A stretch of 64,000 nt of DNA. Origin: an uncultured Planctomycetaceae bacterium (GTDB taxonomy: Bacteria; Planctomycetota; Planctomycetia; Planctomycetales; Planctomycetaceae). The DNA lies in the NCBI GenBank assembly GCA_903858815.1, contig CAIOKE010000133.1, positions 372,001 to 436,000 of the forward strand. The letters are read 5' to 3'. Position numbers and translations under genes: made by a program. Shown here piece by piece: positions 4,304 through 17,422 of this stretch; the stretch's first letter is position 1; every line of letters begins with the position of its first letter. The notes under the pieces were generated by a model, which worked only from the letters and a program-made list of their open reading frames with translations, did no database searches and was not told the DNA's origin.

Positions 4304-4875
4304 CCATTGAAGTTGAAGCCAAGTTCCCGATTCCGAATCCTGCCTTGCTGATTGCGAAAGCAGAGGAATTGGGCATACGGTTTTCCGAAACGCCGGTGCT
4401 GGAGCAGGACGAGTACTTTAACCATCCGGCTCGTGACTTTCGACAGACCGATGAGGCTCTCAGGATCCGTCGAATCGGGGACGAATTGATCCTGACGTGG
4501 AAGGGCCCTCGCATCGACACCGTTTCAAAATCTCGTCGCGAACTCGAGGCCCCCTTCACTGTACCCACGTCTGATATCGAATGCAGACTGCAGGACCTGA
4601 TCAGAATTCTGCTGGCACTGGGATTCACGCAGAGCGGCAGCGTTCGAAAACTGCGACGCTCTGCAACACTCGAATTCGAAGGGCGCCTGTTTCACTGCAG
4701 CCTCGATGACGTCGACGGACTGCCGCTGCACGCAGAACTGGAAACACTGTGCGAAGACAGCCAGCAGCCGGATGCCCTGCAGTCTCTGTTGCGACTGGCC
4801 CGGCAATTGAATCTGCAGCAGCAGGAACGACGCTCCTACCTTGAACTGGTGCTCACATCAGTCCACGACGGCTGA
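4300..4875 (+). CDS. CYTH-domain protein (class IV adenylate cyclase CyaB-like)
   Basis: 191 residues. It begins with the hallmark ExExK motif (EVEAKF, residues 4-9). The expected charged strands follow: [30 protein letters not shown] and a C-terminal [17 protein letters not shown] set, forming the triphosphate tunnel. CYTH enzymes include class IV adenylate cyclases, thiamine triphosphatases and polyphosphatases; the layout is closest to the CyaB-like branch, but the substrate is inferred only. Start ATG 4300 overlaps the DUF971 stop by four bases. The 3' end overlaps the convergent aldolase gene by 23 bases. Confidence 0.87.
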
Positions 4876-5881
4876 GTTCTGCCACGACCTGACGCACTAT
4901 TGCAGTCACATCAGCCGCATCCGGCTGATTCTCTGCACCCGCTGGAAGTGGACAGCCACCAACGGGCTGGTCCGTAAACCCGTGAGCCGACAGCATACAC
5001 TGCAGTTCGCGACTGAGCGTTCCAATGTCGGTCTTCTGCTTGTCGCTCAGAGGCTGCCGTCCGTGCCCCATCTGAAACCCGCGCAGGCCCACTGCAGCTC
5101 GAAAGCCCTCTGGGAATTCAGCCGAATAGATCATCGTGTCGAACAGTCTGATCAGGTCATACTGGACCCGTCGAGCCTCATCAATCTGATAAGAGACGGT
5201 CAGGTCATACAATCGACGAGTCAGTTCTGGTACCACACCCGAGCTGGCGTTTGTGCCACCATCGCAGCCGGCCAGCAGCATCGGCATCAACGCAGCATCC
5301 CAGCCAGTCAAAAAGGCAAAATCCGGACGGTTGGGCCGAACCGCCTGAATCATTCGAATCATGTGAGGAATGTCACCCGAAGAGTCCTTGATCGCCACAA
5401 TCCGCTCAAATTCTTCCGACAGCCTCTGAATTGTCGGAACATCAATCGGACTGGCAAACATCGGTATGTTGTACAACGTCACGTCAATCGGAGTATTACG
5501 ACCAATCTCCGCGAAATACGCATAAACCGAAGCCGGGCTCAGCTTGTAATAAAATGGGGCCACAATCGCCACGGCTCGTATTCCCAGCGAGTGGTAATAC
5601 TCGCAGGCACGGATCGTTTCCTTCACATTCGCCTCAGCAGCACCCGCCAGAATCGGAACACGCCCCCGCACCTGGTCAGCCAGAATCGCCACAATCCGAC
5701 GACGCTCTTCCGGTGTAAAACGAGTAAACTCGCCAGTGGATCCGTTCGGATAAAGTCCATGCACACCACGAGCAATCAGCCAGTCAGCATAACGACGCAG
5801 TTCTGCTTCATTGATTCCCCCATCCGCTGTGTAGGGAACAAGATTGGGAGTAAAAATACCCTGCAGCTTTGTACCAGCCAT
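4853..5881 (-). CDS. DapA-family aldolase (dihydrodipicolinate synthase/N-acetylneuraminate lyase superfamily)
   Basis: 342 residues from ATG 5881, where the conserved [14 protein letters not shown] opening begins; the frame is open for 18 further codons upstream. Class I aldolase barrel: the carboxylate-binding NGSTGE loop (about 46-51), the proton-relay Tyr137 (LYNIP) and the Schiff-base Lys165 (AIKDSSGD) are all present. The protein is longer than a classic DapA (about 290), with a C-terminal extension rich in Pro and Gly that is typical of planctomycete paralogs. No lysine-biosynthesis neighbours are present, so a sugar-acid or other keto-acid substrate is as likely as dihydrodipicolinate. 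It is convergent with the CYTH gene. Confidence 0.9.
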
Positions 5882-9679: not shown

Positions 9680-9752
9680 GGGGCGGTAGCCAAGTGGCTA
9701 AGGCAACGGATTGCAAATCCGTCACGCGAGGGTTCGACTCCCTCTCGCCCCT
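9680..9752 (+). tRNA. tRNA-Cys (anticodon GCA)
   Basis: 73 bases. The acceptor stem GGGGCGG pairs with TCGCCCC (one G-T pair), the D-arm contains AAGTGGCTAAGGC, the anticodon stem ACGGA/TCCGT encloses TTGCAAA with GCA at 9713-9715, and the T-arm is GAGGGTTCGACTCCCTC. The discriminator base is T at 9752, which is the identity base of tRNA-Cys. CCA is not encoded. Confidence 0.96.
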
Positions 9753-9758
9753 CTTCCC

Positions 9759-9802
9759 AAACCTTTCCAGTCTGTCCTCTGGGCACTGAGAAAGGTTTTT
9801 TT
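9759..9802 (+). terminator. Probable terminator after tRNA-Cys
   Basis: AAACCTTT (9759-9766) pairs with AAAGGTTT (9791-9798), with an inner CAG/CTG pairing (9768-9770, 9786-9788), and the stem runs into a T-run that ends at 9802. It lies just after the tRNA and before the hydrolase start. Confidence 0.6.
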
Positions 9803-9833
9803 GTTGGAAGCTTCTGCCCGAGGGAAGTCAATC

Positions 9834-11348
9834 ATGCACGTCCCCCTGCACAACCGCAGATCGCCCGCTCTCTGGCTCCTTGTTCTCGCGGCCCTGCTGA
9901 CGACATTCTTACCCTGCTGCTCAACATTCGCACTCGCCCAGACACAGCGCCTTGAACTGGGACGTCGCCTGAAACGCTTTGAACTCGCCTGGGAACAGGC
10001 TGCTCCTGAGCAACGCATCGAGGCCGTCAGCCCACTGAAAAAGGCCGTCAGCAGTTTCTTCAGCCTGCAACTGTCCGAGGCCGGAAAACAACTCGATAAT
10101 GCGTGGTTCATCGTCCGCGGCAGCGAAAACACCGCCACAATCGAACGCTCCGCCGCTGCCGTTGCACTTTCTGCCCTGCCCTTCTGTGCGTCCCCCGACT
10201 CCACCACCCTCGACCTCCAACTCACATCGTTTTACGCCGATGCCGGCGCACTCCCGGAAACCACAAAACTCCAGCTGTTGCTCCGCGACGCCAGTGGTAG
10301 GCAACTGGCCGAATTCACCTGCAGCGCCACCGAATGTCTCCGGAAACTCCAGTGGCAAACTGGTCCACTCCCAGCCGGTGACCACCGACTCGAAGCTGTT
10401 CTGATTGATAACGATCTCAACTTCCGACTCCCCGATATCACAATCAGCAGAATTCCGGACCTGCAGAGCCGTCTGGAAAAACTGCAGATGTCCGCCGATA
10501 AACTGCGAGAACAGGCACTGCAAAACTCCAGTACCGCCCCGGTCAGCCCGACCGCGCTGACGGCCGCTGCCACCGCACGCAGTGAACTCGCACTGCTCGA
10601 CGCATGCGTGGCCGGACGAGCTCCCGAAGCCGACTTTCCTCTGCTGGCACGACTTTCGTTCGCCGAGCAATTAATGGCTGCCAGCCAAGATCCGGCTTTG
10701 CCAGTCCCCACTCTCAGCCGCACAAACGATCAATGGCTAACACTCGCCAAAGGACGTAAGTCCGTTCCTACTCGCGTGAGACTACCGGAAAAATCCGAGA
10801 CCGCTCCGCCCGTTCTGTTTGTCTTCCACGGTGCCGGAGGCAGCGAAAATATGTTCTTCGAAACCTACGGAGCCGGCCGGGTGATCTCTGAAGCCACACG
10901 CCGTGGCTGGATCGTCATAGCACCCGGACAGGGACTCCTCGGACTTGCACTCCCGGTTCCCGACATGCTGGATGCTCTTGCTGCATTCACTGAAATTGAT
11001 CGCAACCGAGTCATGCTGCTTGGGCACTCCATGGGAGCAGCTCAGGTGGTGCGTCAGGTGCAGCAGGCGCCCGACTGCGCCATCGCTGCCGTTGCGCTCG
11101 GTGGTGGAGGACGCATGGCCGTCACCGGTGACAAAAGTCAGAAGAATGCCCAGTGGTATGTGGGGGCCGGTGCGGAAGACTTCGGACGATCAGGAGCACT
11201 GCAACTGCACCGCAGCCTGCAATCCGCAAAGATCAACAGTGAATATCATGACTTTCCCGGCGTCGAACATCTGGTGATTGTACAGGCTGCTGTCGACGAC
11301 GCTTTCCGATTCCTCGATCAGACACTCAGGCAGAATCCAGCACCATGA
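9834..11348 (+). CDS. Exported alpha/beta hydrolase (esterase/depolymerase-like)
   Basis: 504 residues from ATG 9834; the open frame begins earlier but overlaps the tRNA. Residues 1-38 are a signal peptide (basic MHVPLHNRRS, then LWLLVLAALLTTFLPCC). Residues 40-300 are an Ala/Leu-rich helical region of unknown role. The catalytic domain is C-terminal: an oxyanion-hole HGAGGSE motif (about residues 330-336), the nucleophile elbow GHSMGA with its Ser, an Asp candidate in the WYVGAGAEDFG segment, and the His in FPGVEHLVI. This resembles PHB-depolymerase/S9-like esterases; the substrate is unknown. The gene stands alone after tRNA-Cys. Confidence 0.85.
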   Translation: MHVPLHNRRSPALWLLVLAALLTTFLPCCSTFALAQTQRLELGRRLKRFELAWEQAAPEQRIEAVSPLKKAVSSFFSLQLSEAGKQLDNAWFIVRGSENTATIERSAAAVALSALPFCASPDSTTLDLQLTSFYADAGALPETTKLQLLLRDASGRQLAEFTCSATECLRKLQWQTGPLPAGDHRLEAVLIDNDLNFRLPDITISRIPDLQSRLEKLQMSADKLREQALQNSSTAPVSPTALTAAATARSELALLDACVAGRAPEADFPLLARLSFAEQLMAASQDPALPVPTLSRTNDQWLTLAKGRKSVPTRVRLPEKSETAPPVLFVFHGAGGSENMFFETYGAGRVISEATRRGWIVIAPGQGLLGLALPVPDMLDALAAFTEIDRNRVMLLGHSMGAAQVVRQVQQAPDCAIAAVALGGGGRMAVTGDKSQKNAQWYVGAGAEDFGRSGALQLHRSLQSAKINSEYHDFPGVEHLVIVQAAVDDAFRFLDQTLRQNPAP

Positions 11349-11410: not shown

Positions 11411-12151
11411 TTAGTCCAATGCAGCGGCCGCTCGACTCTTCGATTCCAGCTCAGCTTCAGACAACTGCTTCAGCCGCTCTAACACGCTGCCACTGGCACA
11501 AAAACACCGGATCTCGTCCTCCAGTAAAGGCAGCACAGAACCATATAACAGTCGCGAGTTCCGATCATCGCCGGACTTCCAACCCTCGTCCGCCAGACGC
11601 AGGCGTTCTACCGTCTCCGCCCCCGGCGATGCAGCCCCCATTAACCACTCTCGAGACTGCAGCAGCCTTTGAGATCGAGCACGTGGGCCTGTTGTCACTC
11701 CAGCCCACTGCCGCAGATGATGGTTCACGGCATCCCGGACCTGCTGTTCGCCCCCAGCAGTCCAGTCCAGCGTCCCGGCCGGTACCAATTCATGCAACTG
11801 CCGAGCCGTTGCCGGAAAATACTTCTGATGACCGATCATCAGAAATTGGGAAGACACAGCACACAGCAAAACAGTATTCAGAGAGATCAGCAACCCGGCC
11901 GGGGCACTCCAGCACAACCAACTACAGAACAGAGCCCCCCAGCGACAACCCACGCGATATCCCGAAAACGCGGAAATCCCCCCGGCAGTCAGCAACAGCA
12001 GAATGGGATGACAAACCAGCACAACCACGATCGGCAGCAGCAGCACTTTGACAGGCAGCGGCATTCTCGCCGGCAGCAGACGGGCCAGTACATCCGGGAC
12101 CCGCCGAATCTCGCGGCCCTGCCCATTGACGATCAGGATCTCTGCCCCCAT
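11411..12151 (-). CDS. Membrane protein of unknown function (third gene of an orphan run)
   Basis: 246 residues from ATG 12151; the stop of the upstream gene and this ATG share TGATG, so translation is probably coupled. Two or three strong hydrophobic segments lie between residues 35 and 110 (VKVLLLPIVVVLVCHPILLLL; WGALFCSWLCWSAPAGLLISL). A soluble C-terminal half follows, with RARSQRLLQSREWLMG and an acidic-to-basic helix ending in KSRAAAALD. I do not recognise the family. The N-terminal VNGQGREIRRVPDVLARLLP looks cytosolic. Its place behind a tethered helical protein and a coiled-coil protein suggests an envelope complex, by inference. Confidence 0.7.
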   Translation of the reverse strand: MGAEILIVNGQGREIRRVPDVLARLLPARMPLPVKVLLLPIVVVLVCHPILLLLTAGGISAFSGYRVGCRWGALFCSWLCWSAPAGLLISLNTVLLCAVSSQFLMIGHQKYFPATARQLHELVPAGTLDWTAGGEQQVRDAVNHHLRQWAGVTTGPRARSQRLLQSREWLMGAASPGAETVERLRLADEGWKSGDDRNSRLLYGSVLPLLEDEIRCFCASGSVLERLKQLSEAELESKSRAAAALD

Positions 12152-12801
12152 CACTGCACCTCCAGTCCGCGTTGATTCAACAGTTGTTCCTCAGCCATCG
12201 GCCACAGTTCGGCAGCCAGCAACAACCACTCCGCGTCCGCCTGCAGGTGATCAGATCGCAGCAGCAACTCGCTGCCCTGCAGCAGCAGATCGATCGCTGG
12301 TAATTCGAAAGATGGCCTGAGCTCATCACTCAATCTTCCAGATGGCCACCGCTGCAAGAGTTCACTCGCCCGCCCTGCCAGATCCTCAGCCTCGGTTTTC
12401 TCAGCACCAGCAACCTGCCTCAGCGCCTCTGCAACCGCCCCCAGGCCGCGCCGCATCAGGTCCTCGTCCTCTGCCTTCGGGCGCAAAGCAGCCAGACTCC
12501 GCAACCAGTCTGCAGCCTCCGCATCAGCAGACTGCAAACTCTGATCCGGATCGACCATGCAGTCTGGAAAGCGAGTCAGTAACTCCAATACCACCCCCCG
12601 CATCTTGACATCATCCAAAACAGGAAGGATTCGCTGCAGCCCTTCCGCTGCAGCCAACAACCGACACTGAACAACCTGCCGCTCTGCGGCAGGTGAATGA
12701 ACCGCGCGAACCTTCTGTTTTGACACGTACTGATGCAGTAATCCAGACAGACTCAGCAACTGCCCAAATGTTAAGAATCCCCAGAAAATCCAGCGTGCCA
12801 T
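12151..12801 (-). CDS. Single-pass membrane protein with helical-repeat-like soluble domain, unknown
   Basis: 216 residues from ATG 12801, which has AGGTGA just upstream; the open frame runs 27 codons further. One N-terminal membrane segment (WIFWGFLTFGQLLSLSGLL, about 4-22) anchors a soluble domain made almost wholly of Ala/Leu/Glu-rich amphipathic helices (VVLELLTRFPDCM, LGAVAEALRQVAGAEK, LLLQGSELLLRSDHLQADAE). The pattern could be helical repeats of TPR-like length but no family consensus is clear. It sits 93 bases after the coiled-coil gene and is translationally coupled to the next membrane protein. Confidence 0.68.
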   Translation of the reverse strand: MARWIFWGFLTFGQLLSLSGLLHQYVSKQKVRAVHSPAAERQVVQCRLLAAAEGLQRILPVLDDVKMRGVVLELLTRFPDCMVDPDQSLQSADAEAADWLRSLAALRPKAEDEDLMRRGLGAVAEALRQVAGAEKTEAEDLAGRASELLQRWPSGRLSDELRPSFELPAIDLLLQGSELLLRSDHLQADAEWLLLAAELWPMAEEQLLNQRGLEVQ

Positions 12802-12894
12802 CCCATCACCTGTTCGATCAGCACTCGCAGGACGCATACGGCAGAGTTCCCTGAAATCTGAAGTAAAACGAGCATTTCCCAACGGGCAAGAGAC

Positions 12895-13809
12895 TCACAG
12901 ATTGTCAGTTGGCAACCCAGTGGCAACAGCCTCGAACTGCCCGGAAACCACCTCCGGCTCAGACTGCATCGTGGAGGTCAAGGCGTCTGTGTCAGCAGCT
13001 TTCAGTGAGCTCTGCAGACGACTTAAAACATCCTGCCGCCTGCCTGCACGTTCCAGTCCGTTTTCTACACCTGCCCCGATACTGCCCAGAGCAGTGTTCG
13101 CTGCTTCCGCTTCCGCGACCTCAGTTCGCAGACGGTCCAAACTGCGACCAATCTCAGCAGCCACCGAACTATTACTCCGCCCTGTCGTTTCCACCAGATC
13201 CAGCAGGTGCCGGCGACTCTCAGCTCGCTCGCGCCGCATCTGCAAAGACTTCCACTCCGATTCTGCCGCCCACAGCAGTTTCTCCAGTTCACCAGCCAAC
13301 AGACGCCCCTCAGCCAAACTGCCATGCAGCTGATTCAGTGATTCAAGCAGGACAGTCACCTGCCCCTGCTCATGCTCCTGCTCGCTCATCAACCGGTCCA
13401 GTTCAAGATCAAACTGATCCTGCTCCCAGTCACGTCCCGCGAAACTCACTGTAACAGCCGTTGCACCCGCGTTCTGTGATGCTGCAGCAGCATCCTGCAG
13501 CAGTAACCTCCGCCGGGCAATGGCAGACTGCAACTCAGTAATGGACTGCTGCAGACGAGTCTCTTCTGTTGCAGCCAGATTCAATTTCGCCTGCCGTTGA
13601 ATCAATTCATTCCGCAGAGTCGCCAGATCATTTTCAAGCTTCTGCTCGTGGACGCCTGTCGGCAACTCCTGTTCAATCTGCATCGCGGAATGCTGGACAG
13701 CAGCACGAGTGTAGCCGGAAAAATTCCGCCACATCTGCCCTGCCGTTCCCAGCCCCAGCAGTACCAGCACCCCAAGAAAACCCATCACACATCTGCCTGC
13801 AGTCCACAT
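12895..13809 (-). CDS. Membrane-anchored coiled-coil protein, unknown
   Basis: 304 residues from ATG 13809, chosen because the hydrophobic anchor follows directly (GFLGVLVLLGLGTAG, about residues 10-24) and AGGTG lies upstream. Residues 60-130 and 150-270 are long heptad-rich helices (EQKLENDLATLRNELIQRQAKL; LESLNQLHGSLAEGRLL; RSLDRLRTEVAEAEA), broken near residue 115 by a Gly/Ala/Ser patch. It ends in an unstructured tail. The form fits a rod-like periplasmic or surface spacer. No family recognised. First gene of a three-gene minus-strand run. Confidence 0.72.
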   Translation of the reverse strand: MWTAGRCVMGFLGVLVLLGLGTAGQMWRNFSGYTRAAVQHSAMQIEQELPTGVHEQKLENDLATLRNELIQRQAKLNLAATEETRLQQSITELQSAIARRRLLLQDAAAASQNAGATAVTVSFAGRDWEQDQFDLELDRLMSEQEHEQGQVTVLLESLNQLHGSLAEGRLLAGELEKLLWAAESEWKSLQMRRERAESRRHLLDLVETTGRSNSSVAAEIGRSLDRLRTEVAEAEAANTALGSIGAGVENGLERAGRRQDVLSRLQSSLKAADTDALTSTMQSEPEVVSGQFEAVATGLPTDNL

Positions 13810-13938: not shown

Positions 13939-14844
13939 CTACTTTCCAGCAATCGAAATGATGAACACTCCGCACATCAATCCGGCCGTGCAAACGGCCT
14001 TCATTCGCCAGTTCTGCTCGCCATACATGCGAATTCCCGCCACAAAAGCAATCACCACCGAGGTGCGCCGCAGAGGAGAAATCACCGAAATCAGTGCCCC
14101 AGGCTGCTCAATCGCATGAAAATACTGAAAATCTGAAACCAGCAGCAGCAGGGCAATCATCGGAATAGACCAGCGCCATTCGAAGCCACTGTCAGCACGC
14201 CCCCTGCGATACCACCACGCTGCAAGCGGCAGCATGACCGGAACCAGATACACTGAAAACCACGCCTGGACCGTCGCTGTTCGAAAACCACTGTCAGCCA
14301 GCAAAAACTTGTCATACAGCGAACTGCAGGCCCCCAGCACAGTCGCCAGTACCATACAGAACACCCAGCGATCCCGATGAAACACAATTCCCTCACGCCG
14401 ACCTGCCAGAGAAAAAGCGTAGAACGAAATCAGGACCACCAACACACCCAGCCACTGAATCAGTGATGGACGCTCCCCCAGCAATAACACGGCCGCAACA
14501 ATCGTAACCAGCGGACTGCTGGCACGAATCGGTACTGCAATCGACACCGGCAGGTGCTTCAGCGCAAACGATGCAAAAATCCATGAGCTGCCCGCCAACA
14601 GAGACTTTCCCGCCAGCATCAGATGCTCAGCCCATGACAACGCGTCCACACGCAGCAGATCTCCGGGCAATAGCCATGGCGTAAAACGAGACACCAGAAT
14701 GACAGGCAGATAAACAGCAGCGGACGTCAGGACGTTGAACAACAACACCGGCGGAACAGCATTCCCTCTCAGTGACTCCTTCTTGGCTATTTCATACAGC
14801 CCCAGAAACACAGCCGACAACAGACTCAGAACAATCCAGTTCAT
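13939..14844 (-). CDS. EamA/DMT-superfamily permease
   Basis: 301 residues from ATG 14844, with GGAA upstream. About ten hydrophobic segments in two repeated halves, with the EamA-like opening (LSLLSAVFLGLYEIAKKESL) and the internal HLPVSIAVPIRASSPLVTIVAAVLLLGERPS segment, whose E-R-P pattern is a family hallmark, repeated more weakly near the C-terminus (PGALISVISPLRRTSVVIAF). Members export or import small metabolites, but the substrate cannot be told. It lies downstream of rho on the same strand but beyond a terminator-like hairpin, so it is probably expressed separately. Confidence 0.9.
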   Translation of the reverse strand: MNWIVLSLLSAVFLGLYEIAKKESLRGNAVPPVLLFNVLTSAAVYLPVILVSRFTPWLLPGDLLRVDALSWAEHLMLAGKSLLAGSSWIFASFALKHLPVSIAVPIRASSPLVTIVAAVLLLGERPSLIQWLGVLVVLISFYAFSLAGRREGIVFHRDRWVFCMVLATVLGACSSLYDKFLLADSGFRTATVQAWFSVYLVPVMLPLAAWWYRRGRADSGFEWRWSIPMIALLLLVSDFQYFHAIEQPGALISVISPLRRTSVVIAFVAGIRMYGEQNWRMKAVCTAGLMCGVFIISIAGK

Positions 14845-14852
14845 AACAGTTC

Positions 14853-14891
14853 CAAACAAAAGAGCCTGTCCGCCACTCTCGACGCACAGGC
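14853..14891 (-). terminator. Probable terminator of rho
   Basis: On the minus strand GCCTGT and ACAGGC (plus-strand 14886-14891 and 14864-14869) form a 6-bp stem with a 16-base loop, followed by TCTTTTGTTT. It is 45 bases past the rho stop and just before the DMT permease start. Confidence 0.6.
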
Positions 14892-14935
14892 CCTCACAGA
14901 AAGTCTCGCCCGAATACGGACTTGATCCACAATGA

Positions 14936-17422
14936 TTACAGCACAGCACGAATCTTCGTCAGAAACTCACGATTGGTTGGAAATCGTTCCATCGTCTTGG
15001 TCAGTTGCTCCATGGCCTCAACTGGACTCAGACTGATCAGACTGCGCCGCAGCATCGTGATACCTTCAAGCAGATCCGCCTGCAGGATCTTTTCTTCACG
15101 GCGAGTCCCGGAACGAGTGATGTCAATCGATGGCCAGATGCGACGGTCAGCCAGCTCACGGCTGAGCATCATCTCCATGTTGCCCGTCCCCTTGAACTCC
15201 TGAAAAATAGCCTCATCCATCCGGCTGCCGGTGTCAATCAACGCCGTCCCGCAGACAGTCAAGGAACCACCTTCGTCAAATCGACGAGCCTGACCGAAGA
15301 GTTTCTTGGGGACATCGAGCGCACGAATGTCCAGACCACCAGTGGCAGTCCGACCCGTATTACTGTACTTGTTGAAGGCTCGTGCCAGACGAGTAATGCT
15401 GTCCAGCAGGATGAAGACATCCTTGCCCTCTTCCGCCAATCGCTTCGCTCGTTCGATGATCAACTGAGCAATCCGGATGTGACTTTCCACGTCATTATCC
15501 AGCGAAGACGAAATCACTTCGCCCTTCACCAGCCGACGCATCTCTGTTACTTCCTCAGGACGCTCGTCAATCAACAGCACCATCAGATGAATCTCGGGAT
15601 GGTTGACGCTGACAGAATGAGCAATATCCTGGAGCAGCATGGTCTTACCGGTGCGTGGCGGCGCCACAAGCAGGGCACGCTGACCCTTGCCGATCGGACA
15701 CAACAGATCCATCACTCGCATTGTCAGCGGACGAGGCCCCGTTTCCAGCCGAATCTGCTCAAACGGATTGATCGCCGTCAGCTGGTCAAAATGCCGTATC
15801 TTGTCGTACTCCTCAGGAGTCAGACCATCAATGGTCTCCACTTCCATCAGGCGTGGACCCTGATTATGAGTCCCCGCACCGACCTCGCCGCGAATAAGTA
15901 CCCCTTCACGCAGCCGGTACTTTTCAACCAGCGAACTTGACACGAACGGATTGGAATCTTCAGCCGCATAGTTGCGTTTCGGGTCCCGCAGGAATCCATA
16001 GCCACGGTTATGCAGTTCCACCACGCCCTCAAACGTACCCTCAATCACCTCTGTGGATGCAGAAATGCTGCGCGGCCGACGCGGCATCCCACGGTCCCGG
16101 TCACGGTCACGCCCCCCGCGGCCACCGCCCATCGGCTGCCCACCACGGTGCGGGAAATCACCCCGACGTTCGCGCGGACCACCTGGGCCCCCAGGACCAC
16201 CACGACGACCACCATGACGACGGTTGCCACCATCAGGACGCCCTGAGTCAAACCGCGGGCCATCACCTCGAGGCCCCTGATCGCGCCCAAATCCGTCGCG
16301 CACACCCTGATCGCGCCCAAATCCGTCGCGAACACCCTGATCGCCCGGACCACGGTCACCACCGCGACGACGGCGACGACGGCGACGACGTGACGGACGA
16401 CGATCGTCCCCATCGGCACCGTCATACCCACCACCGCCACCTGATCCCTCCAGGTCCCCGTCAGCGTCGCCACCCGCGATACCTCCGCGGTCCTCATCCC
16501 CATCACCACCGCCAAACAGTTGATCCGAATATCGCTCCAGATCGTCCCGACGGCGTGGAGGACGTCCAGATCCGCCACCACCAAATCCCTCATCTCCACG
16601 ACGGCCACGGCCCCAGTCCTCGCGACCACCTTCGCGATTGACTTCCGCACCATCTGTTTCAAATCGCGTGGGCGCTTCACCCAACTCACTATCCGGTGAC
16701 GGACCATCCGCATAGCGCGAAGTCTCTTCGCGACGACGCGAAAATCGATGGCCACCACCCTCACCATATCCGTCACCAACACGACCAACGCGACGACCAC
16801 GGTCACCACGGTCACCACGATCACCACGGTCACCACGGTCACCACGACTTCGCGAACCTCCGCCGTCGTCGTCGCCGAAATCCAGTTCCTCAGAACTGAA
16901 ATAACTCATGCCGGTCTGCGGCTCAACGTCGGCAAGATGACGCTCGAAACGGTTCGAGGTCCGATCGCCACCACGATCCGCTGAACCGGGATCCTCAGAG
17001 CCCTCTACGGCACCACCATCTGCATCCGCAGAACGACGAGCGTCCCGGCGCAAACCACGCTCAGGGCGTGCCCGACGACCACCACGCGACACGGGCTCTT
17101 CCGCATTGACATCACCAGTTGCCGGCGAACGCTGCTCAGCAGCCTCAGCGACCTCAGCAACTGGCTCACTGCGCACTACACGCTCGCTGCGTTCCGCCGA
17201 AGAACGGCGAGATCGACTGGGACGAGACTCTTCCGCTGGAGCACCACTATCAGATTCCACCCCGGAACCGAAATCATCCGGCTCACTGGAAACGATTGGG
17301 GCCTCAGATGGGGCGGGACGGCGAGACCGTCCGGTAGCACGTGGCTCATCACCAGATCGTGAAGTTGTTCGACGACGAGGACGAGGACTGGTTCCGTCAG
17401 AATCGGAACTGCGTGAAGGCAT
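14936..17422 (-). CDS. rho: Transcription termination factor Rho with a very long low-complexity N-terminus
   Basis: 828 residues from ATG 17422; the normal protein is about 420. RNA-dependent hexameric ATPase that ends transcription. Residues 1 to about 450 are low-complexity Arg/Gly/Asp/Ser/Pro sequence, including five RGD units and three near-copies of a GFGRDQG unit. No N-terminal three-helix Rho_N bundle is visible. The core then follows: an RNA-binding cold-shock-like domain (EGVVELHNRGYGFLRDP), Walker A (PPRTGKT, about residue 589), Walker B (VLLIDE), the Q-loop region (LDNDVESHIRIAQ), and the R-loop with the GTGNMEMMLSRELADRR block. The core looks intact and active. A promoter-like site about 750 bases upstream suggests a long leader. 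Confidence 0.96.
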   Translation of the reverse strand: MPSRSSDSDGTSPRPRRRTTSRSGDEPRATGRSRRPAPSEAPIVSSEPDDFGSGVESDSGAPAEESRPSRSRRSSAERSERVVRSEPVAEVAEAAEQRSPATGDVNAEEPVSRGGRRARPERGLRRDARRSADADGGAVEGSEDPGSADRGGDRTSNRFERHLADVEPQTGMSYFSSEELDFGDDDGGGSRSRGDRGDRGDRGDRGDRGRRVGRVGDGYGEGGGHRFSRRREETSRYADGPSPDSELGEAPTRFETDGAEVNREGGREDWGRGRRGDEGFGGGGSGRPPRRRDDLERYSDQLFGGGDGDEDRGGIAGGDADGDLEGSGGGGGYDGADGDDRRPSRRRRRRRRRGGDRGPGDQGVRDGFGRDQGVRDGFGRDQGPRGDGPRFDSGRPDGGNRRHGGRRGGPGGPGGPRERRGDFPHRGGQPMGGGRGGRDRDRDRGMPRRPRSISASTEVIEGTFEGVVELHNRGYGFLRDPKRNYAAEDSNPFVSSSLVEKYRLREGVLIRGEVGAGTHNQGPRLMEVETIDGLTPEEYDKIRHFDQLTAINPFEQIRLETGPRPLTMRVMDLLCPIGKGQRALLVAPPRTGKTMLLQDIAHSVSVNHPEIHLMVLLIDERPEEVTEMRRLVKGEVISSSLDNDVESHIRIAQLIIERAKRLAEEGKDVFILLDSITRLARAFNKYSNTGRTATGGLDIRALDVPKKLFGQARRFDEGGSLTVCGTALIDTGSRMDEAIFQEFKGTGNMEMMLSRELADRRIWPSIDITRSGTRREEKILQADLLEGITMLRRSLISLSPVEAMEQLTKTMERFPTNREFLTKIRAVL
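16242..16344 (-). repeat. Tandem repeat in the rho low-complexity region (GFGRDQG units)
   Basis: Three near-identical in-frame copies of a unit of about 30 bases encode GFGRDQGVRD-type decapeptides. The plus-strand copies share CTGATCGCGCCCAAATCCGT. Inside the coding region. Confidence 0.75.
16793..16850 (-). repeat. 9-bp repeat tract in rho encoding RGD units
   Basis: About five consecutive copies of the plus-strand unit GGTCACCAC (one with a single change, GATCACCAC) encode RGDRGDRGDRGD. In-frame, so copy-number change would alter tail length without breaking the gene. Confidence 0.8.

Follow-up and report, generated by a model that had tools for sequence, protein, structure and literature searches.

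Three adjacent genes in the stretch of planctomycete DNA analyzed here (64,000 nucleotides, referred to as the window), designated A, B, and C, form a lineage-specific cassette of putative envelope proteins. The reading that we favor, at a probability of roughly 40%, derives A from an envelope hairpin protein that is often a companion of kinases; a copy would have come to lie at a kinase-free site together with the newer genes B and C.

Organization and coding potential of the cassette

All three genes are encoded on the minus strand. Gene A (positions 12895 to 13809, ATG at 13809) encodes a predicted anchored alpha-hairpin of 304 amino acids with a beta-hairpin tip, gene B (12151 to 12801, ATG at 12801) encodes a helical protein of 216 amino acids with a weak N-terminal anchor, and gene C (11411 to 12151, ATG at 12151) encodes a protein of 246 amino acids in which two hydrophobic regions are followed by a helical C-terminal part. 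The order of the genes on one strand and the coupling of B to C by a TGATG motif (12149 to 12153, minus strand), in which the stop codon (TGA) of B and the start codon (ATG) of C have one base in common, had been proposed in an initial annotation of the window and were confirmed from the ORF coordinates. The frame of gene B is open as far upstream as a TTG at 12882. The upstream border of the cassette site is a gene for an EamA-type permease (13939 to 14949, minus strand), and the other border is a convergent alpha/beta hydrolase ORF (9711 to 11348, plus strand). A tRNA gene (Rfam RF00005; 9680 to 9752, plus strand) lies directly 5' of the hydrolase, and because the listed hydrolase ORF overlaps this gene, the true hydrolase start is probably further in than 9711.

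No Pfam or NCBIfam model matched A, B, or C above cut-off, and the first description of the three proteins as unrecognized still holds. Pfam searches of the neighboring ORFs in the window identified alpha/beta hydrolase, EamA, Rho, DEAD helicase, response regulator, and histidine kinase domains, with one scanned ORF lacking a match; no Ser/Thr kinase, sigma factor, or FGE domain was found among these scanned neighbors. Promoter and terminator scans gave numbers at chance level. A, B, and C look like real genes, since ORFs are present at all three positions in two other genomes (G257 and G248) and since synonymous change exceeds non-synonymous change between those two. Spurious or wrong-strand ORFs were ruled out by the kept frames together with dN/dS.

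Distribution of the cassette among relatives

The order EamA, A, B, and C, convergent with the hydrolase, is present in 3 of 18 genus genomes (that of the window, 6.39 Mb in 373 contigs, and G257 and G248) and is thus not unique to the window genome. A-family matches were obtained in 5 of the 18 genomes, C was found in 3, and B was found by search in 1, the window genome being included in each count; the B counterparts in the relatives were identified by position. In the genus-wide searches and locus comparisons, B and C turned up in no genomes other than these close relatives.

Fourteen of the 18 genomes have an EamA match at E ≤ 1e-40, and its surroundings were compared at the three cassette loci and at 10 others, leaving out G260 (contig edge). 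In three genomes (G252, G258, and G256), the EamA and hydrolase genes are direct convergent neighbors, 55, 55, and 316 bases apart, without the cassette, and searches for A and C gave no match anywhere else in these three. At the other 7 of the 10 loci, EamA was seen with neither a hydrolase nor the cassette next to it; at one of these, that of G262, the contig ends 264 bases downstream. EamA identity to the window protein is 86 to 87% in the cassette carriers and 71% in the empty-site genomes. These sequences fit a gain of the cassette in an ancestor of the three carriers, because the carriers are nearest to the window by EamA identity and the empty-site genomes come next; loss is the less likely alternative.

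Beyond the genus, a single-sequence search with A gave matches at E ≤ 0.01 in 4 of 246 genomes of the phylum, a count that includes the window genome and two genomes that reached no better than E 0.005. With an A profile, 2 of 392 genomes sampled from the phylum gave a match, again counting the window genome and considering the best five candidates per genome. The large genome scans considered the best 5 to 9 candidates per genome, so absences in them are soft. Co-occurrence of the set across planctomycetes, which had been raised with its first description, was not borne out, and a trio conserved throughout the phylum is not supported by these searches for A.

Selection on A, B, and C

Between G257 and G248, where dS is 0.3 to 0.6 for these genes, the dN/dS ratios of A, B, and C were 0.19, 0.40, and 0.61, respectively, compared with 0.11 for the flanking EamA gene and 0.21 for the hydrolase. 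Between the window and its relatives, dN/dS was 0.31 to 0.34 for A and 0.25 to 0.26 for the hydrolase, with dS above 1 between the window and the other two carriers. For C, comparison of the window with G248 gave a dN/dS of about 1.0 from a poor alignment (24% identity), which is no evidence of positive selection. By these estimates, constraint on A is about equal to that on the neighboring hydrolase.

These rates bear on whether the cassette could be an accretion of recent origin under weak selection, in which A would be a stray duplicate and B and C would be drifting with little function. The fast evolution of B and C would be expected of such drift, as would the difference in B length (216 amino acids in the window and 341 in both G257 and G248), the lack in G248 C of a stretch of more than 50 residues that G257 C has, and the absence of the cassette from three genomes with the same flanks. 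However, the frames are open in three genomes despite the high dS of the window, gene order has been kept, and the ratio for A between the relatives is close to that for the hydrolase. We regard accretion as rather unlikely.

Properties of the B and C proteins

B had been described as a tethered helical protein and C as a polytopic one. B is predicted to be helical, as described, but its tether is weak in the window copy, in which no 19-residue stretch has a mean Kyte-Doolittle hydropathy of ≥1.5; the two counterparts each have such a stretch. Two hydrophobic regions of C were located by hydropathy (residues 25 to 64 and 73 to 107), and the description of C can be narrowed to that of a probable two-pass membrane protein.

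Window B aligned with B of the relatives with an hhalign E value of 0.013, and its score was reached by 0 of 500 shuffled sequences against G248 and by 12 of 500 against G257; window B is a probable shortened counterpart of the 341-residue protein. Window C is clearly related to C of the relatives, as judged by profile alignment (hhalign E 3.4e-16). B and C of the relatives have a coiled-coil tail in common (27 columns, E 0.00092). In a shuffle test of A against G257 B, 0 of 500 sequences reached the score, a result put down to coiled-coil composition. The C model (mean pLDDT 63) gave no Foldseek match at E ≤ 0.001, and its best match with a second aligner, DUF4398 (Z 8.9, rmsd 9.6 Å over 90 residues), was taken as uninformative. 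Derivation of C or B from a piece of a kinase stalk was rejected (only 33 columns, E 0.022, and only 41 columns, E 0.039, respectively), as was the origin of B as a duplicate of A (only 21 columns, E 0.18).

Gene A and its family

A has an N-terminal hydrophobic segment (residues 1 to 27 by hydropathy), as do five near relatives. In its AlphaFold model (mean pLDDT 73.9, pTM 0.47), helices 51 to 114 and 130 to 211 form a hairpin with a beta tip at residues 120 to 129 (strands 120 to 123 and 126 to 129), and two further helices are predicted at 216 to 245 and 251 to 280.

A paralog on contig C168 of the same genome is 34% identical to A (E 4.4e-36), and relatives were found in G257, G248 (two), G253, G259 (partial), and G155, a genome of another family. 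A Pfam PspA search of the window genome yielded a further gene, P0014, at C323 (E 0.068). A search with P0014 reached six places in the genome, including itself and the A paralog (E 4.2e-5), and did not reach A itself at E ≤ 0.001; overall, it matched 5 of 294 genomes, four of them distant planctomycetes. Because this search scored 9 of 30 candidates, the count of seven family genes in the window genome is a lower bound (at least seven) and no census. A seven-member near profile aligned with an eight-member distant profile at an hhalign E value of 2.8e-7 over 156 columns including the tip, and at 9.9e-7 over 75 columns when the linking sequence P0014 was left out; each value refers to a single comparison, and scores of this kind are inflated by coiled coils. 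The family link is supported because the common tip motif is not a coiled coil. Profile-level similarity is present across the hairpin, including the tip, and places A in an unnamed family of predicted anchored alpha-hairpins with a beta tip. The label of orphan given in the initial annotation fails for A, which has a paralog in its own genome and belongs to a wider family; Ser/Thr kinase genes adjoin several members of this family.

The C168 paralog (L020, G000:C168) lies at the end of its short contig, next to a short repeat whose translation in one frame is RHPTPDT. A similar repeat is present on G248 contig C84 (L018), also a short contig with an A paralog, and a repeat of the RHPTPDT type may explain the assembly break at the A paralog.

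Comparison with PspA and Vipp1

A different explanation, which we consider improbable, would relate A, as a membrane-anchored protein, to PspA/Vipp1 (ESCRT-III superfamily) and would make the cassette an envelope-stress membrane-remodeling module. B and C would then be membrane partners like PspB/PspC or LiaI/LiaF. The helix layout of PspA resembles the four predicted helices of A, in that a long alpha-hairpin is followed by further helices. Vipp1 chains take the first seven places in the Foldseek search with the A model (E 1.5e-3 to 2.6e-2, probability 1.00), PspA chains rank lower, and Pfam PspA_IM30 was matched below cut-off by two of the seven family members (best E 5.2e-5). However, no Foldseek match of the A model reached E ≤ 0.001, and a second aligner (VIA) ranked PI3K regulatory-subunit hairpins at the top with Z about 12, a range common for long helices, along with other unrelated coiled coils. 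Sequence comparisons argue against this relationship. Among solved-structure sequences, the A profile found no PspA or Vipp1 at E ≤ 1, and neither A nor C had any match at E < 0.1; A itself did not match PspA_IM30 even at E ≤ 1, and SMC models outscored the NCBIfam PspA model for the A relatives. The beta tip and the N-terminal hydrophobic segment further set A apart from PspA/Vipp1.

The window genome has a PspA_IM30 gene above cut-off elsewhere, on contig C77, which aligned with the A profile over 14 columns (E 0.24). This gene (L058, G000:C77, 773 to 2013) lies directly after an ECF sigma factor gene and is outside the A family. Psp/Lia-type loci resemble the cassette in that a coiled-coil protein is encoded with membrane proteins, but the window locus encodes no PspA above cut-off, and no Psp or Lia membrane domain was found in B or C with Pfam. 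A PspA/Vipp1-like role of A, as suggested by the structural model, is only a lead.

Neighbors of A-family genes

In G253, the A gene is followed by genes for an ECF sigma factor, a Ser/Thr kinase, and a membrane stalk protein that is ended by the contig end; in G155, it is followed by genes for an ECF sigma factor and a kinase-stalk-FGE fusion. Pfam confirmed the sigma factor and kinase domains in both genomes and the FGE domain in G155. Within the window genome, A relatives adjoin genes for membrane Ser/Thr kinases with an FGE-sulfatase (PF03781) domain. Kinase-FGE fusions adjoin family genes directly at C323, C347, and C44, and another starts 1.5 kb from the family gene C280:14564, with an ORF between. 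The copy at the contig end of C280 has a kinase 0.8 kb away that carries a GTPase-like domain and no FGE. A caspase-domain ORF (PF00656, E 1.6e-7; L074, G000:C280, 4279 to 5325, minus strand) comes right after C280:14564, and a gene for a Ser/Thr kinase fused to a double-GTPase domain (PF19993; L081, G000:C280, 1259 to 3808, minus strand) lies near an A-family gene.

The window genome contains 27 FGE matches, none of them on the window contig. Four of the seven family genes are within 5 kb of an FGE match (binomial P = 5e-5; coverage at most 3.5%) and three are within 3 kb (P = 4e-4). The distance limits were set once the loci had been seen, and two of the seven genes, at C323 and at the contig end of C280, share 96% identity over 166 residues. 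At all four genes within 5 kb, the FGE gene concerned encodes a kinase-FGE fusion; the window gene, the C168 paralog, and the C280 contig-end copy lie beyond this distance.

No kinase was seen among the ORFs scanned on the short contigs of the C168 and G248:C84 paralogs, and the 6 kb around the partial paralog of G259 gave no kinase or FGE match. A genus search with the G253 sigma factor gave no match (E ≤ 1e-8) in the window genome or G248. Of the four distant genomes, one (G165) has a kinase-FGE gene within the stretch covered, at 3 kb from its family gene, G119 and G124 have OmpA-domain ORFs near theirs (L078, 92 to 1705, and L079, 3477 to 5696, both minus strand), and G301 has neither kinase-FGE nor OmpA among the ORFs scanned. 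The kinase link of the A family is frequent and not general, since OmpA neighbors occur in two distant genomes and no kinase was seen in the stretches covered in three of the four. OmpA-domain partners would still fit an envelope role for the family. Planctomycete Ser/Thr kinases with FGE domains are many, and one survey placed these domains mostly on the periplasmic side (PMC11032199). No title on a coiled-coil companion of FGE kinases was found among the top-ranked literature, which does not imply its absence from print.

A putative diversity-generating retroelement beside a kinase-linked FGE gene in G257

A related type of operon was observed in G257 (L056, G257:C260, 379 to 6364), encoding an ECF sigma factor, a Ser/Thr kinase, and a membrane stalk-FGE protein in this order. 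A template-like 156-nucleotide repeat of the end of the FGE gene is located downstream (4946 to 5101 versus 4345 to 4500, 88% identical); 17 of the 19 differences are at adenines of the downstream copy, and the repeat is followed by a reverse transcriptase gene (PF00078, E 8.3e-23). Such a repeat with a reverse transcriptase gene after it is the layout of a diversity-generating retroelement, and the locus looks like one aimed at a kinase-linked FGE protein. The contig starts a few hundred bases ahead of the sigma factor gene, and no A gene was seen in that upstream part; the cassette copy is the sole A-family match in G257. The first 6 kb of the G155 locus, which include the kinase-FGE gene, contained no direct repeats of ≥50 bases.

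DISCUSSION

Gene order and hydrophobic anchors lead us to infer that A, B, and C form one envelope assembly. In the three sampled species that carry it, A lies with B and C between the EamA permease and hydrolase genes, neither of which encodes a kinase. A relatives precede an ECF sigma-kinase pair in G253 and G155, whereas the window cassette is without a kinase, sigma factor, or FGE domain, so that A would correspond only to the companion in those loci. A copy of A would have moved to the EamA-hydrolase site. The N-terminal helix would serve as the anchor of the protein and leave the hairpin on the outer side of the inner membrane (a topology judged by eye), and the kinase-linked relatives of A would make contact with the sensor at its stalk or FGE domain. 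At the EamA-hydrolase site, B and C, which are probably cotranslated and fast-evolving, would replace the kinase as partners, and A, B, and C would form an envelope scaffold or sensor without a phosphorylation output of its own.

That the cassette is instead an anti-phage or other conflict system is very unlikely: its presence or absence between the same flanks, the rapid evolution of B and C, the caspase-domain ORF adjoining C280:14564, and the discussion of FGE-domain proteins in putative conflict systems in two papers (PMC8195603, PMC10907252) would suit such a system, but PADLOC gave no match for B or C and only coiled-coil-type matches to large ATPase models for A and its relatives (best, A to LmuB, E 0.0013, and the relative P0010 to JetC, E 1.6e-4), a single-sequence search found no A relatives in viral contigs or plasmids, and no enzyme domain was found in A.

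The favored reading, a hairpin copy at a kinase-free site with newer partners, could be part of a wider and more speculative picture, which we consider doubtful. The A family would act as dedicated co-receptor hairpins of envelope sensors, chiefly of FGE (lectin-fold) Ser/Thr kinases, some of them hypermutable by diversity-generating retroelements, and A-B-C would be an offshoot without a kinase, its sensor replaced by two fast-evolving membrane proteins. An anchored hairpin family that recurs beside some FGE kinases is a concrete candidate partner for them, and the window cassette would provide a natural separation of the hairpin from the kinase.
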